Part shown: piece after piece, positions 8,717-29,447 of the stretch
How positions within the stretch are numbered: position 1 is the first letter of the stretch
Layout of the letters: each line of letters opens with the position of its first letter
Assembly (NCBI GenBank): GCA_030154225.1
Contig: JASKKI010000014.1
Coordinates: 1-41,547, forward strand
Source: Clostridia bacterium
GTDB taxonomy: Bacteria; Bacillota; Peptococcia; Peptococcales; BICA1-8
Direction of reading: 5' to 3'
DNA length: 41,547 nucleotides
Notes under the pieces: generated by a model
The model's input: the letters and a program-made list of their open reading frames with translations, nothing else
The model's database searches: none
Told to the model about the DNA's origin: nothing
Translations under genes and position numbers: made by a program

Positions 8717-9961
8717 ATGAAAAGTCAAATTAGAAATTTGCAATTAGCACCCCAAGGTTCTGATAAGATTAGTTGGGTAAAAAATCATATGCCCGTGCTA
8801 AATTTAATTAATGAAGAATTTAAAATAAATAAACCTTTTAAAGGGTTGCGAGTAGTAATTTGTTTGCATTTAGAAGCTAAAACAGGTTATTTAGCCCAAG
8901 TAATACAAGAAGGAGGAGCTAAAGTAGCGGTTGTTGCCAGTAATCCTTTATCAACTCAAGATGATGTTGTGGCAGCATTAGTAGAAAGTGGAATTACTGC
9001 TTTTGCATGGTATAAAGCAACAGATGAAGAATATTTTAACCATCTTAATGCAGCTGCTCAATTTGAGCCGAATCTAGTTATAGACGACGGAGGAGATCTG
9101 GTTGCTCTTTTACATAGTAAGTACCCAGAAATTCTAGATAATGTTTTAGGTGGGTGTGAAGAAACTACTACAGGTATTCTAAGACTGCGTTCCTTGGAAA
9201 AAGAGGGAACATTAAAAATTCCCATGATTGCTGTTAATGACGCCATGTCAAAATATTTATTTGATAATCGTTATGGGACAGGACAGTCGGTTTGGGATGG
9301 TATTATGAGAACTACAAATTTAGTAGTAGCCGGTAAAACTGTTGTAGTTATTGGCTATGGTTGGTGTGGAAAAGGTGTAGCATTACGGGCCAAAGGACTT
9401 GGAGCAAAAGTTATAGTTTGTGAAATTGATCCCATTAAAGCTACTGAAGCTTTAATGGACGGCTTTCAAGTTATGCCTATGATTGAAGCAGCGCCACAAG
9501 GAGATTTTTTCATAACAGTCACAGGAAACAAAAATGTAATTAGAGAAGAACATTTAAAATTAATTAAGGATAAAGCCCTATTAGCAAATGCTGGACATTT
9601 TGATATAGAGATCTCAAAACCTGATTTAGTCAAGATGGCAGTTGAAAGAAAAATTGTTAAACCAAACATTGAAGAATATCTATTTAGTGATGGAAGAAAA
9701 GTTTATTTATTAGCAGAAGGTCGCCTTGTAAATTTGGCTGCGGGTGATGGGCATCCCGTTGAAATAATGGATATGACTTTTGCTTTACAAGCATTGTCAC
9801 TAGAATATTTAACAAAAAATAAAACTTTAAAAAATAAAGTTTATAAAGTTTCTGAACATATAGATCAAAAAGTTGCTGCCTTAAGACTCGCATCTCTGGG
9901 TATCAAATTTGATAAATTAACACCCGAGCAAGAGGAATATTTGGCTAGCTGGCAATTATAG
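8717..9961 (+). CDS. ahcY: S-adenosylhomocysteinase
   Basis: This 414-aa enzyme splits S-adenosylhomocysteine into adenosine and homocysteine with bound NAD+, relieving product inhibition of methyltransferases. Recognisable pieces are IDDGGDLVALLH, GGCEETTTGILRLRSLE, VNDAMSKYLFDNRYGTGQS, the NAD site VVIGYGWCGKGVALRAKGLGA (about 211-231) and GDGHPVEIMDMTFALQAL. The chain ends LTPEQEEYLASWQL, lacking the Lys-Tyr-containing tail of longer bacterial and eukaryotic enzymes, so it belongs to the short type seen in Thermotoga and archaea. A role in S-inosylhomocysteine hydrolysis cannot be excluded. ATG 8717 follows TAGGAGG. Confidence 0.93.
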   Translation: MKSQIRNLQLAPQGSDKISWVKNHMPVLNLINEEFKINKPFKGLRVVICLHLEAKTGYLAQVIQEGGAKVAVVASNPLSTQDDVVAALVESGITAFAWYKATDEEYFNHLNAAAQFEPNLVIDDGGDLVALLHSKYPEILDNVLGGCEETTTGILRLRSLEKEGTLKIPMIAVNDAMSKYLFDNRYGTGQSVWDGIMRTTNLVVAGKTVVVIGYGWCGKGVALRAKGLGAKVIVCEIDPIKATEALMDGFQVMPMIEAAPQGDFFITVTGNKNVIREEHLKLIKDKALLANAGHFDIEISKPDLVKMAVERKIVKPNIEEYLFSDGRKVYLLAEGRLVNLAAGDGHPVEIMDMTFALQALSLEYLTKNKTLKNKVYKVSEHIDQKVAALRLASLGIKFDKLTPEQEEYLASWQL

Positions 9962-24510: not shown

Positions 24511-25773
24511 ATGAATAGCAAAATGAAAAGTGCAAGAGAAATATCATTAGCTAGAGCTGAAATTTTAAAAACTAGAATTAAACCTTACTTAGAAGCAAGA
24601 GAACAAATCCCAACCGGTTTAAAAACGTCTGATGCTATAAAAAAACGTCAGGAAAAAATTAAAGAAGTATTAGGAGCAACGGAAGAGCAATGGAATGACT
24701 GGCATTGGCAGATAAGAAACAGGATTAGTGATAGTAAAACATTAGGAAAGTTTTTAAATCTTACAGAAAAACAAAAACAAGACATAGATAAAGTGGGTGA
24801 AAGTTTCCGATGGGCAATTTCACCATATTATTTATCCCTTATCAATCCAGATGCTGATTATCTACAAGACCCAATATATTTACAGTCTGTTCCAACAGGT
24901 TTTGAATTGGCAGATACTAAAGGAATTGCTGATCCAATGGGAGAGGAATTTACAAATCCTGCAGAATGTATTACTCGCCGGTATCCAGACCGGTTGATAA
25001 TTAATGTAACTAACCAGTGTGCTATGTACTGCCGTCATTGTCAGAGAAGGAGAAATATAGGAGAAGTTGATAAACCAAGGTCAAAGGAGGAAATCAGTGA
25101 AGCTATAAACTATATCAAAAATTCTCCTGAAATCCGGGACGTCTTAATTACCGGTGGTGATGCTTTTACTTTATCTGATGAATTAATTGATTGGATTTTA
25201 GGAGAACTGGATAAAATACCTCACATAGAGTATAAACGTCTTGGTTCGCGGATGCTAGTTACATTACCTCAAAGGGTTACTCCCGAGTTTTGTGAAATTT
25301 TAAAGAAACATCATCCTGTTTATGTAAATACCCATTTTAATAATCCAATGGAGGTAACTGAGGAATCGAAAAAAGCTTGCGAAATGCTTGCTAATTCAGG
25401 AATACCATTAGGAAATCAAGCTGTGTTATTAAGAGGAATTAACGATGATCCTCATATTATGAAGACTTTAAATCATGAACTTTTGAAAATTAGGGTCAGA
25501 CCTTATTACATATTTCATGCTAAAGGTGTTATAGGTACAATGCATTTTAAAACCAGTGTTGATATTGGAATTGAAATTATGGAACAATTAAGGGGATATA
25601 CTTCAGGTTTAGCAGTTCCTACTTATATAATTAATGCCCCTCAAGGTAAAGGAAAAACTCCTATGCTACCCGAGTATTTAATTTCCCACGGTCGGGATTA
25701 CATTACTATTAGAACTTGGGAAGGAGAAGTTATACATTATCCTAATAAAGATGCCGAATTAACTTCGAAATAA
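24511..25773 (+). CDS. eam: Glutamate 2,3-aminomutase (radical SAM, PLP)
   Basis: This 420-aa enzyme of the lysine 2,3-aminomutase family moves the amino group of glutamate from C2 to C3, giving beta-glutamate. The radical-SAM cysteines are C170, C174 and C177 (CAMYCRHC) and the PLP lysine is K382 in APQGKGKTP. Lysine aminomutases hold the substrate side chain with two Asp residues. Here they are replaced by Lys338 (IFHAKG) and Asn375 (IINAP), 37 residues apart. These match, in identity and spacing, the Lys/Asn pair described for glutamate 2,3-aminomutase (K332/N369). Beta-glutamate serves as an osmolyte in some anaerobes. The start ATG follows AAGGAGG. It is monocistronic. Confidence 0.9.
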   Translation: MNSKMKSAREISLARAEILKTRIKPYLEAREQIPTGLKTSDAIKKRQEKIKEVLGATEEQWNDWHWQIRNRISDSKTLGKFLNLTEKQKQDIDKVGESFRWAISPYYLSLINPDADYLQDPIYLQSVPTGFELADTKGIADPMGEEFTNPAECITRRYPDRLIINVTNQCAMYCRHCQRRRNIGEVDKPRSKEEISEAINYIKNSPEIRDVLITGGDAFTLSDELIDWILGELDKIPHIEYKRLGSRMLVTLPQRVTPEFCEILKKHHPVYVNTHFNNPMEVTEESKKACEMLANSGIPLGNQAVLLRGINDDPHIMKTLNHELLKIRVRPYYIFHAKGVIGTMHFKTSVDIGIEIMEQLRGYTSGLAVPTYIINAPQGKGKTPMLPEYLISHGRDYITIRTWEGEVIHYPNKDAELTSK

Positions 25774-25933: not shown

Positions 25934-26917
25934 ATGAAAAAAAGAATTGCTTTAATTTTAATTGTTACTTTAATCTTAAGCATCGCATTAGTAGGGTGTG
26001 CTCCAAAAGAGGAGGCTAAAAAAGAAGAACCTAAGAAAGAGGAAGCTAAAAAAGTCTTTATTAACATTGCTACGGGAGGAACTGCAGGAACATACTTCCC
26101 CTTGGGTGGAGGTATTGCAGATATTTGGAATAAAAATATTCCCGGTGTAAATGCTACCGCTGAAAGTACTGGTGCTTCTGTAGCAAATACTAATATGCTC
26201 CGTGACGGAAAAGTTGACGTTATTTTTGTTCAAAATGATATTGCTTATTATGCTGCTAATGGAACCGAAGCTTTTAAAGATAATAAATACGCTGATATTA
26301 GAGGCCTATGTACTTTATATCCGGAAACAGTACAAATCATAACTTTTGCTGATAAAGGTATTGAAACTTTAGCTGACCTAAAAGATAAGAAAGTTGCTGT
26401 TGGTGCACCCGGTTCTGGTACAGAAGCAAACGCCCGTCAAATTTTAGGAGTTGCGGGTATTACTTATGAAGATATTGATGAACAATACTTATCCTTTTCT
26501 GAAGCTGCTCAAAACTTAAAAGACGGGAACATTGATGCTGCATTTATTACAGCAGGCCATCCTACAGCAGCAGTTCAAGATATTGCTGCTCAACACAAAA
26601 TTAAATTAATACCAGTTCCAAGCGATATAGCTGACAAATTAAAAGCAGATTATCCTTTCTATACTAAAGTAACCATACCAGCTGGAACATATAATACCGT
26701 TGATGTTGATGTAGAAGCTGTGGCAGTTAAGGCTATGTTAGCTGTGGATGCAAAGATGGATGCAGACCTTGCCTACAATTTATTAAAAACTATGTATGAA
26801 AATCCTGACCGTTTAAAAGCAGCTCATGCCAAAGGTGCAATGATAACCAAAGAAACCGGTAAAGATGGTATGTCTATAGATTTACATCCTGGTGCTGCAA
26901 AATTCTTTAGTGAATAA
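25934..26917 (+). CDS. TAXI-family TRAP transporter substrate-binding lipoprotein
   Basis: This 327-aa protein has a signal peptide ending in lipobox ALVGC, then a Lys/Glu-rich linker (residues 24-40). The TAXI receptor domain follows: INIATGGTAGTYFPLGGGIADIWN, AESTGASVANTNMLRDGKVDVIFVQND and VAVGAPGSGTEANARQIL. TAXI proteins bind dicarboxylates, glutamate or other organic acids and deliver them to a Na+- or H+-driven TRAP permease. The DUF1850 gene and fused permease follow, completing the typical TAXI-TRAP set. The start ATG follows AAAAGGGGG. The ligand cannot be told from sequence. Confidence 0.95.
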   Translation: MKKRIALILIVTLILSIALVGCAPKEEAKKEEPKKEEAKKVFINIATGGTAGTYFPLGGGIADIWNKNIPGVNATAESTGASVANTNMLRDGKVDVIFVQNDIAYYAANGTEAFKDNKYADIRGLCTLYPETVQIITFADKGIETLADLKDKKVAVGAPGSGTEANARQILGVAGITYEDIDEQYLSFSEAAQNLKDGNIDAAFITAGHPTAAVQDIAAQHKIKLIPVPSDIADKLKADYPFYTKVTIPAGTYNTVDVDVEAVAVKAMLAVDAKMDADLAYNLLKTMYENPDRLKAAHAKGAMITKETGKDGMSIDLHPGAAKFFSE

Positions 26918-26925
26918 ATTATTAG

Positions 26926-26946
26926 TTCAATAAACTGTTTATTGAA
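26926..26946 (+). other. Intercistronic hairpin after TAXI gene
   Basis: TTCAATAAA (26926-26934) pairs with TTTATTGAA (26938-26946) across CTG, 9 bases after the stop codon. It lacks a T-run, so it probably stabilises or partly terminates the abundant binding-protein mRNA. Confidence 0.65.
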
Positions 26947-26950
26947 TTAC

Positions 26951-26995
26951 AAGGGGGTCTGAGCATTGGAGTAATCCAATGCTCACATTTTAATG
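26951..26995 (+). promoter_or_regulatory. Shine-Dalgarno separated from start codon by a hairpin
   Basis: AAGGGGG at 26951-26957 is the only plausible ribosome site for ATG 26993, but they are 35 nt apart. Between them TGAGCATTGGA (26960-26970) and TCCAATGCTCA (26975-26985) form a perfect 11-bp hairpin with a GTAA (GNRA-type) tetraloop. When folded, the remaining spacer is TC plus CATTTTA, nine nucleotides, the ideal distance. A two-codon ORF TTG-GAG-TAA at 26966-26974 would be the competing product of the same ribosome site. Confidence 0.65.
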
Positions 26996-27487
26996 AAAAA
27001 AAATATTTTAATATTTATCATATTATTATCAATAAGTTTCTTAATCCTATTTTTTGCAAATTTTACTGTTACAAAAGAAAAAGTTTTAATTATTGCCAAT
27101 ACAGAAAAAAACACGGAAAAAGTATTAAGTGTACCTGATAATAAATTTATTTTGAGTTTTATTCATTCTGTTCACCATACTCCGGTTTACGAGTATTTTG
27201 AAATTAATCAAGATAATACACTTATTATGAAGGAAATTAGATATTATTCCTTAGGGGTAGGTATGCCATTTACTGATGAAGGTGGAATTTTTTCTAACGA
27301 AAATGGTGAATTTGTATTAAAATTTAATCGAGAATTTGATAAACTCTTTATGAGAATCTCTCCTATTCCCCAACATGCAATTAAAATAGGTGATAAAATC
27401 TATCCACTACTTAGTTTTGCAGAACCGGAACAACAAATTAAAATAGTAGCATCAGAAAAATGGCTTTTTAAAAAAAGAAATAATTGA
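26993..27487 (+). CDS. DUF1850 protein of the TAXI-TRAP transporter
   Basis: This 164-aa protein has an N-terminal membrane anchor (about 4-25) and an extracytoplasmic beta-rich domain. The DUF1850 features are the early FILSFIHSVHHTPVYEYFEI and later YYSLGVGMPF near the middle, with the conserved SxxHSV-xxxPV-E pattern. DUF1850 genes regularly lie between TAXI receptor and fused permease genes and are thought to be accessory to transport, with unknown mechanism. It is translated from ATG 26993, whose ribosome site is set apart by a hairpin. The permease gene follows 16 bases later. Confidence 0.85.
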   Translation: MKKNILIFIILLSISFLILFFANFTVTKEKVLIIANTEKNTEKVLSVPDNKFILSFIHSVHHTPVYEYFEINQDNTLIMKEIRYYSLGVGMPFTDEGGIFSNENGEFVLKFNREFDKLFMRISPIPQHAIKIGDKIYPLLSFAEPEQQIKIVASEKWLFKKRNN

Positions 27488-27503: not shown

Positions 27504-29447
27504 GTGTCAAAAAATCAGCAGGAAGCTTTTGTAAATGATGAAGAAATATTACGAAAATATGATAAGGAATCCGACTACAGGAAGCTGACTGGTTTAACTG
27601 CAAAAGTTATTTCAGCCCTTGCTATTTCTTTTACTCTTTTTCAATTATATACGGCAGTATTCGGTGTATTAGATGCTATGATCCAGAGATCTATCCACGT
27701 TTCCTTTGGATTTGCATTAATCTTTCTTTTATATCCTGCCAGGAAAAAATGGTCCCGTTATAAAATTCATCCCATCGATATCTTATTTGCTATTGTTGGT
27801 GCTGCAGTCCCATTATACATTGTCACCTTTTATAAAGAACTTGTGTTAAGAGCCGGAACAGTAACAACTACAGATTATATTATTGGTTTAATAGGGATCT
27901 TAATTGTTTTAGAAGCAGCACGGCGCATTGTAGGTTGGCCAATGGTAACTGTTGCCAGCTTATTCTTGGTATACGCTCTATTTGGAAGATATGTACCAGG
28001 GCAATTAGCACACCGGGGTGTTGATTTAGAAAGTTTAGTTTATCATCTATTTTTTACCACTGAAGGAATTTTTGGTATACCTATAGGTGTTTCATCTACG
28101 TTTATATTCCTTTTTATTTTATTTGGTGCTTTTTTAGAAAAAACCGGTATGGGGCAATTTTTTATTGATTTAGCTAATGCTATTGCAGGTTGGGCTTCAG
28201 GTGGACCAGCTAAGGTTGCAGTACTTTCAAGCGGACTAATGGGTACAGTTTCAGGAAGTTCTGTGGCTAATGTTGTTGGTACTGGTAGTTTTACTATTCC
28301 AATGATGAAAAAGTTAGGGTATAAAGGTGAATTTGCAGGGGCTGTGGAAGCGACTGCATCTACAGGTGGTCAGCTTATGCCACCAATTATGGGCGCCGCT
28401 GCTTTCTTAATGGCTGAATTCACTCAAATTCCTTATGTGAAAATAATTGCTTCAGCCGCAATTCCTGCTCTGTTATATTATTTTGGAGTCTGGACCGGAG
28501 TACATTTAGAAGCAAAGAAATTAGGGTTAAAAGGAATGACCCGGGAAGAATTACCCAAAATAAAAGAGATTATTTTAGATAGAGGACATCTTTTCTTACC
28601 TTTGGCTCTAATTGTTTATCTTTTAGTTACAGGTTATACACCAATGCGGGCTGCATTATTTGCTATTCTTTCATCTGTATTAGTTTCTATGGTGAAAAGA
28701 AATACACGAATAGGTTTTATGGATATTGTTAAAGGACTTGAACAAGGGGCTAGGGGTGCATTAGGTGTTCTGGCTGCTACTGCTTGTGCAGGTATTATAA
28801 TAGGAGTTGTAACAAAAACAGGCTTAGGTTTAAAATTAGGTACCTCTCTTGTAGATTTAGCAGGGGGAAGGTTAATATTAACTTTATTCTTTACAATGGT
28901 AACTTCTATTATATTAGGTATGGGCGTACCAACTACAGCTAATTATGTTATAACATCCACTATTGCTGCACCGGCACTGTTACTCTTAGATGTACCGGTT
29001 CTGGCTGCTCATATGTTTGCATTTTATTTTGGTATTATTGCTGATGTTACTCCGCCGGTTGCTTTAGCAGCTTTTGCGGGTTCAGGTATTGCTAAGTCCA
29101 ATCCTTTAAAAACTGCATTTAATGCATCAAAACTGGCCATTGCCGCTTATCTGGTTCCTTATATCTTTGTATTTAGTCCTGCATTACTTCTAGTCGATGT
29201 TACTATTGTGGAGGTAATCCGTATTATAATTACTTCTGTCATAGGTATTGTTGCAGTTGGTTCTGCAGTTCAAGGATTCTTGGTGACCTATGAAAGCTGG
29301 TTTGAAAGAATTCTTTTCTTCGGTAGTGGTGTACTGCTAATCCAGCCTAATTTCTATACAGATATTATTGGGTTATCATTAATCATTTTTGGTTATATTA
29401 TGCAAAAAAGAAAGTATGCAAAAACAATTAAATTACAAGAAATTTAA
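27504..29447 (+). CDS. TRAP transporter fused permease (4TM/12TM)
   Basis: This 647-aa integral membrane protein combines the small and large TRAP subunits. The first ~150 residues give four helices (DctQ-like). The rest is the 12-helix DctM-like part with VLSSGLMGTVSGSSVANVVGTGSFTIPMMKKLGY, TASTGGQLMPPIMGAAAFLM and ILGMGVPTTANYVITSTIAAPALL. It drives uptake of the TAXI-bound substrate with an ion gradient. The start is GTG 27504 after GAGGAGGGG. Two terminators follow. The substrate is unknown but likely an organic or amino acid. Confidence 0.95.
   Translation: MSKNQQEAFVNDEEILRKYDKESDYRKLTGLTAKVISALAISFTLFQLYTAVFGVLDAMIQRSIHVSFGFALIFLLYPARKKWSRYKIHPIDILFAIVGAAVPLYIVTFYKELVLRAGTVTTTDYIIGLIGILIVLEAARRIVGWPMVTVASLFLVYALFGRYVPGQLAHRGVDLESLVYHLFFTTEGIFGIPIGVSSTFIFLFILFGAFLEKTGMGQFFIDLANAIAGWASGGPAKVAVLSSGLMGTVSGSSVANVVGTGSFTIPMMKKLGYKGEFAGAVEATASTGGQLMPPIMGAAAFLMAEFTQIPYVKIIASAAIPALLYYFGVWTGVHLEAKKLGLKGMTREELPKIKEIILDRGHLFLPLALIVYLLVTGYTPMRAALFAILSSVLVSMVKRNTRIGFMDIVKGLEQGARGALGVLAATACAGIIIGVVTKTGLGLKLGTSLVDLAGGRLILTLFFTMVTSIILGMGVPTTANYVITSTIAAPALLLLDVPVLAAHMFAFYFGIIADVTPPVALAAFAGSGIAKSNPLKTAFNASKLAIAAYLVPYIFVFSPALLLVDVTIVEVIRIIITSVIGIVAVGSAVQGFLVTYESWFERILFFGSGVLLIQPNFYTDIIGLSLIIFGYIMQKRKYAKTIKLQEI

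Follow-up and report, generated by a model that had tools for sequence, protein, structure and literature searches.

In a stretch of 41,547 nucleotides from a Clostridia bacterium (the window), a perfect hairpin separates a strong Shine-Dalgarno (SD) sequence from the start codon of a DUF1850 gene, and we regard it as rather probable that this hairpin structurally bridges the two halves of a split ribosome binding site. This reading, put forward in a preliminary description of the same DNA, has gained support from the comparison of relatives, in which the layout of SD, hairpin and ATG is found in all 23 distinct sequences and compensatory changes are seen in a second, Dialister-type hairpin.

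The DUF1850 junction in the window

The DUF1850 gene (26993..27487, PF08905 E 1.8e-23) starts with ATG 26993-26995 and is located, on the forward strand like the two genes around it and the elements of the junction, downstream of the gene for a TAXI-family TRAP solute-binding protein (25934..26917; PF16868 E 1.3e-89, TIGR02122 TRAP_TAXI above cut-off) and upstream of that for a fused TRAP permease (27504..29447; TIGR02123 above cut-off), which has an ordinary linear SD, GAGGAGGGG, of -12.1 kcal/mol. At the DUF1850 junction, the SD sequence AAGGGGG (26951..26957) is followed by the hairpin UGAGCAUUGGA-GUAA-UCCAAUGCUCA (26960..26985), for which both the fold and the invariant core arms in relatives speak, and by an A/U-rich tail, CATTTTA (26986..26992), with four U forming a weak terminator-like tract and no SD, that leads to the start codon. 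Reading the DNA at 26950-26995 directly, C-AAGGGGG-TC-TGAGCATTGGA-GTAA-TCCAATGCTCA-CATTTTA-ATG, the arms at 26960-26970 and 26975-26985 form 11 perfect pairs around the loop GTAA at 26971-26974, which is of the GNRA tetraloop type. The linear gap from G26957 to A26993 amounts to 35 nt and is reduced to 9 nt when the 26-nt hairpin is subtracted; the coordinates, stem, loop and gap reported earlier have been found exact on re-reading the sequence.

In a local fold of the window, the hairpin is contained in both the minimum-free-energy and the centroid structure (z -3.15, with 2 of 200 shuffles equally stable). Perfect inverted repeats with arms of at least 11 nt occur four times in the window, compared with a mean of 0.25 in dinucleotide shuffles; the other three, which likewise have short loops, are found at 9432, 22640 and 35306. 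A second, A/T-rich hairpin, TTAGTTCAATAAAC...GTTTATTGAATTA, lies immediately 5' of the SD (26923-26950) and is missing in the nearest relative (L028), which places it outside the conserved element.

The 15 nt before ATG 26993 show no pairing with the anti-SD (+1.5 kcal/mol), whereas the region 5' of the hairpin pairs with it at -11.5 kcal/mol, in agreement with the earlier view that AAGGGGG is the only ribosome site at this start. As the 16S 3' end of the genome itself has not been found in the assembly by a pattern search, the anti-SD sequence used in these calculations has been assumed. Linear SD sequences (-4 to -15 kcal/mol) precede all 33 other listed starts in the window, and a further entry in the list, at 27152, is a codon within DUF1850, which leaves DUF1850 as the sole gene start without a linear SD among those checked in the window; ribosome-site models based on spacing would score it as having none. 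ATG 26993 appears to be a credible start, since it opens a lysine-plus-hydrophobic signal anchor that is common to relatives and is then followed by the DUF1850 domain.

From the anatomy of the junction and its conservation, we infer that initiation may proceed at this AUG across the folded helix. The 30S subunit would pair with the SD 5' of the stem and would accommodate the 11-bp helix without melting it, so that 26 nt would be looped out, the effective spacer would be 9 nt and AUG 26993 would reach the P site. Standing where the binding-protein message ends, the same helix probably also protects that message or partly terminates its transcription, a more weakly grounded second role that is compatible with bridging and by which DUF1850 and the permease would be held below the level of the binding protein.

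The TAXI-TRAP transporter belongs to a family with known glutamate binders, and the gene preceding it in the window (24511-25773) encodes glutamate 2,3-aminomutase (TIGR04368 above cut-off). This neighbourhood suggests a link to beta-glutamate metabolism.

Distribution and layout in relatives

The junctions of relatives from many lineages have been collected by protein searches with DUF1850 and the permease, and the element has been found in 24 genomes of several families, with 23 distinct sequences, which are not independent of each other but inherited within essentially one transporter lineage. All 23 keep the order of SD, hairpin, short A/U tail and ATG, with an SD of the GGAGG/GGGGG type directly 5' of the stem, whose surroundings pair with the anti-SD at a median of -12.1 kcal/mol. 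The linear gap between SD and AUG is 33-40 nt; removal of the paired stem leaves 5-12 nt in 22 of the 23 sequences and 2 nt in one, in which the stem can extend by five pairs. The start codon is situated 5-8 nt 3' of the core stem in the relatives with an orthologous junction, and closer where the stem extends. No relative carrying the element has an SD in the tail between hairpin and start (+0.4 kcal/mol or more). The stem pair probability reaches 0.98-1.0 throughout the 23 sequences, while folding in the local context often leaves the SD partly paired (median unpaired 0.41). The alignment of relatives, proposed earlier as a check of the bridging reading, has accordingly returned a strong SD 5' of the hairpin and a short residual spacing at every orthologous junction. 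Relatives with a normal linear ribosome site had been named as evidence against bridging, and these have turned up solely among distant homologues, many of which have a linear SD or a terminator-like hairpin.

Scanning 398 genomes of the phylum with the exact pattern has given a match in nine of them, one copy each, and none with the reversed control pattern. With a covariance model, 19 of the 22 genomes searched in one order have proved to carry the element, as have 5 of the 46 genomes of the window's own class. The three genomes of that order in which it is missing comprise one devoid of such a transporter, one with only a 41%-identical homologue and one whose contig ends inside the binding-protein gene. 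Every true match precedes DUF1850 in a TAXI-TRAP operon, and the model has found no match at 77 other TAXI operon loci; two further weak matches (genomes G018 and G019, loci L151 and L152) lie in other gene contexts and have been judged to be chance. The single copy per genome rules out a repeat or mobile element, and the half sites by themselves occur a handful of times per genome. The binding-protein tree groups every carrier of the frozen stem in one region, inside which some non-carriers may lie, and one origin of the element followed by losses is possible. A search in Rfam has given three matches up to E 5, all far below the gathering threshold and none at the hairpin.

The layout has also been encountered with hairpins of other sequence. 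A mechanical scan of 1.8 Mb of fetched loci, both strands counted, for an SD, a stem of at least 9 bp and a start has recovered the present element and, in addition, DUF1850 starts with different stem sequences at three loci (L048, L055 and L088); the few other matches resemble chance. In Dialister and relatives (L160-L163, L165, L166 and L168), a hairpin of unrelated sequence occupies the same position, with the SD 5' of the stem and the start 6-9 nt after it. One position of this stem is A-U in L160, G-U in L165 and G-C in L168, so that pairing is kept, and the Dialister-type hairpin looks like an independent version of the layout. At the same place, several Selenomonadaceae have a terminator-like hairpin with a U tract. 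In the Anaerovibrio-type junctions (L046, L058, L061, L076, L091, L193 and L196-L198), DUF1850 is preceded by a single G-rich stretch resembling an SD, and this stretch forms the base of a terminator-like stem with a U tract after it. In another family of the same order (L009-L013, L015 and L017-L020), the DUF1850 coding sequence itself contains a strong terminator-like hairpin, GCCGCAACC...GGTTGCGGT, close to the first membrane helix; in L010, for example, it lies some 55-90 nt past the stop codon of the binding-protein gene.

Frozen stem, free loop and known systems

The core arms GAGCATTGG and CCAATGCTC are invariant in all relatives with the element, and ten stem pairs show no variation at all among 15 distinct aligned sequences. 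Of the 23 sequences, 17 have U-A and 3 have C-G at the outer pair next to these, and the loop between the 9-bp arms ranges from 6 to 10 nt with many different sequences. The fourfold-degenerate sites of the neighbouring binding-protein gene are saturated, with a mean identity of 34%; none of the 53 shared fourfold columns is invariant and the longest invariant run in the gene is 5 nt. Because these sites vary freely, the stem arms can be taken to be under strong selection at the level of single letters. As the core stem never varies, covariation is uninformative for the fold in the window's clade; the stem covariation predicted in the preliminary description is nearly absent there, being restricted to the flanking pair, and is clear in the Dialister-type hairpin.

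Bridging requires pairing only and not a fixed sequence, and it leaves the frozen letters unexplained. For this reason, a further factor that reads the sequence of the helix, or of each arm separately, is likely, be it a protein, a nuclease or an RNA. A freely changing loop on a frozen stem is not what a purely structural spacer would usually show, and it points towards a factor; the combination favours a sequence-reading factor over a thermometer, and the variable length and sequence of the loop argue against loop-recognising proteins. More tentatively, and with some doubt on our side, the invariant helix may be recognised by a sequence-specific factor (an RNA-binding protein, a ribonuclease or a small RNA) that turns the hairpin-bridged site on or off and that perhaps acts on the 3' end of the binding-protein mRNA. 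If true, the outcome would be a split-SD element on bacterial chromosomes that is regulated and has been conserved in several families. A second, conserved copy of an arm that could act as pairing partner elsewhere in the operon has not been found in seven loci including the window. A listing of neighbouring ORFs, made in search of a linked regulator, has given one set for the window and different ones for the Thermosediminibacterales loci.

The precedent of a hairpin-shortened ribosome site in phage T4 gene 38, cited in the preliminary description, is borne out by the literature: hairpins cut the SD-AUG spacing from 22 to 5 nt in gene 38 and from 27 to 11 nt in gene 25, and initiation falls when the stem is destabilised (PMC3014915). 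Like the junction in the window, where the spacing would go from 35 to 9 nt, both T4 genes have a strong SD too distant from the AUG and a stem that shortens the spacing, and gene 25 shares the intercistronic position. Unlike in T4, the present element occurs in bacterial chromosomes of several families and has an invariant stem with a free loop, and it is known from sequence comparison, the T4 cases being known from mutations. A hairpin also interrupts the ribosome site of E. coli thrS, and the 30S subunit holds it there without unfolding (PMC3936740, PMC3858243); that hairpin, however, lies 5' of the SD, where ThrRS binds it to regulate its own synthesis, whereas the one in the window lies between SD and AUG and has a variable loop. 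In the open papers searched, the two T4 genes are the main documented cases of a distant SD being bridged by a hairpin. The 23 sequences together with the Dialister version constitute a natural series in bacterial chromosomes, on which one can test whether an 11-bp helix between SD and start is something that ribosomes accept as a matter of routine.

Rival readings and alternative starts

The hairpin might instead be chiefly a weak intrinsic terminator or a 3' stabiliser of the binding-protein mRNA that sets transporter stoichiometry by selective processing and stabilisation, its place in the ribosome site being incidental, which we consider unlikely. An AUUUU tract does follow the stem, and 76 of 110 loci have a stem of at least 8 bp within the 150 nt that follow the stop codon of the binding-protein gene, in some cases with stronger U tracts. 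In Clostridium cellulolyticum, intergenic stem-loops control subunit ratios (PMC4423207), and for these processing and stabilisation stem-loops of the cip-cel operon, as for the window, the gene 5' of the stem-loop is expected to exceed the following genes of the operon in abundance; the stem in the window differs from them in splitting the SD from the start codon of the next gene and in its frozen sequence. A terminator scan flags the hairpin, one being found where 0.9 are expected by chance. In the window, 5 of the 11 stem pairs are G-C and the tail reads CAUUUUA; among the loci, the 8 nt past the stem mostly contain 4-5 U, which is a point against this rival. Moreover, a terminator or stabiliser needs neither the SD 5' of the stem, present in 23 of 23 sequences, nor the missing SD 3' of it, and it leaves the frozen letters unexplained; taken as a second role, it is compatible with bridging.

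That the UUG in the 5' arm (26966), 8 nt past the SD, is the real start of a leader peptide or of an N-terminally extended DUF1850 seems very improbable to us, even though this codon is invariant, its spacing to the SD is ordinary in all copies and 8 of 23 sequences have it in frame with DUF1850, in several of them with the reading frame open. Its frame relative to the DUF1850 AUG is evenly spread (8/7/8) and out of frame in 15, in the window a stop follows after two codons, the codon is sequestered by a stem of about -18 kcal/mol and conservation extends beyond it to the entire stem. The two-codon ORF UUG-GAG-UAA, previously named as a competing reading, is indeed present at 26966-26974 but recurs in just one relative (L004). 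We attach hardly any probability to the dyad being a DNA operator for a transcription factor and not an RNA structure: the perfect inverted repeat with invariant half sites is operator-like, but the half sites lie anywhere from 6 to 10 bp apart, a variation that one would scarcely expect a DNA-binding dimer to accept, and the dyad is single-copy and lies within the SD-AUG interval in every genome. An AUG in the 3' arm (26979) has been rejected as a start, being in the DUF1850 frame in none of the 23 sequences, and its mini-ORF (AUG CUC ACA UUU UAA) is not conserved. In the window, the last letter of this mini-ORF is A26993, the first of the DUF1850 start codon.
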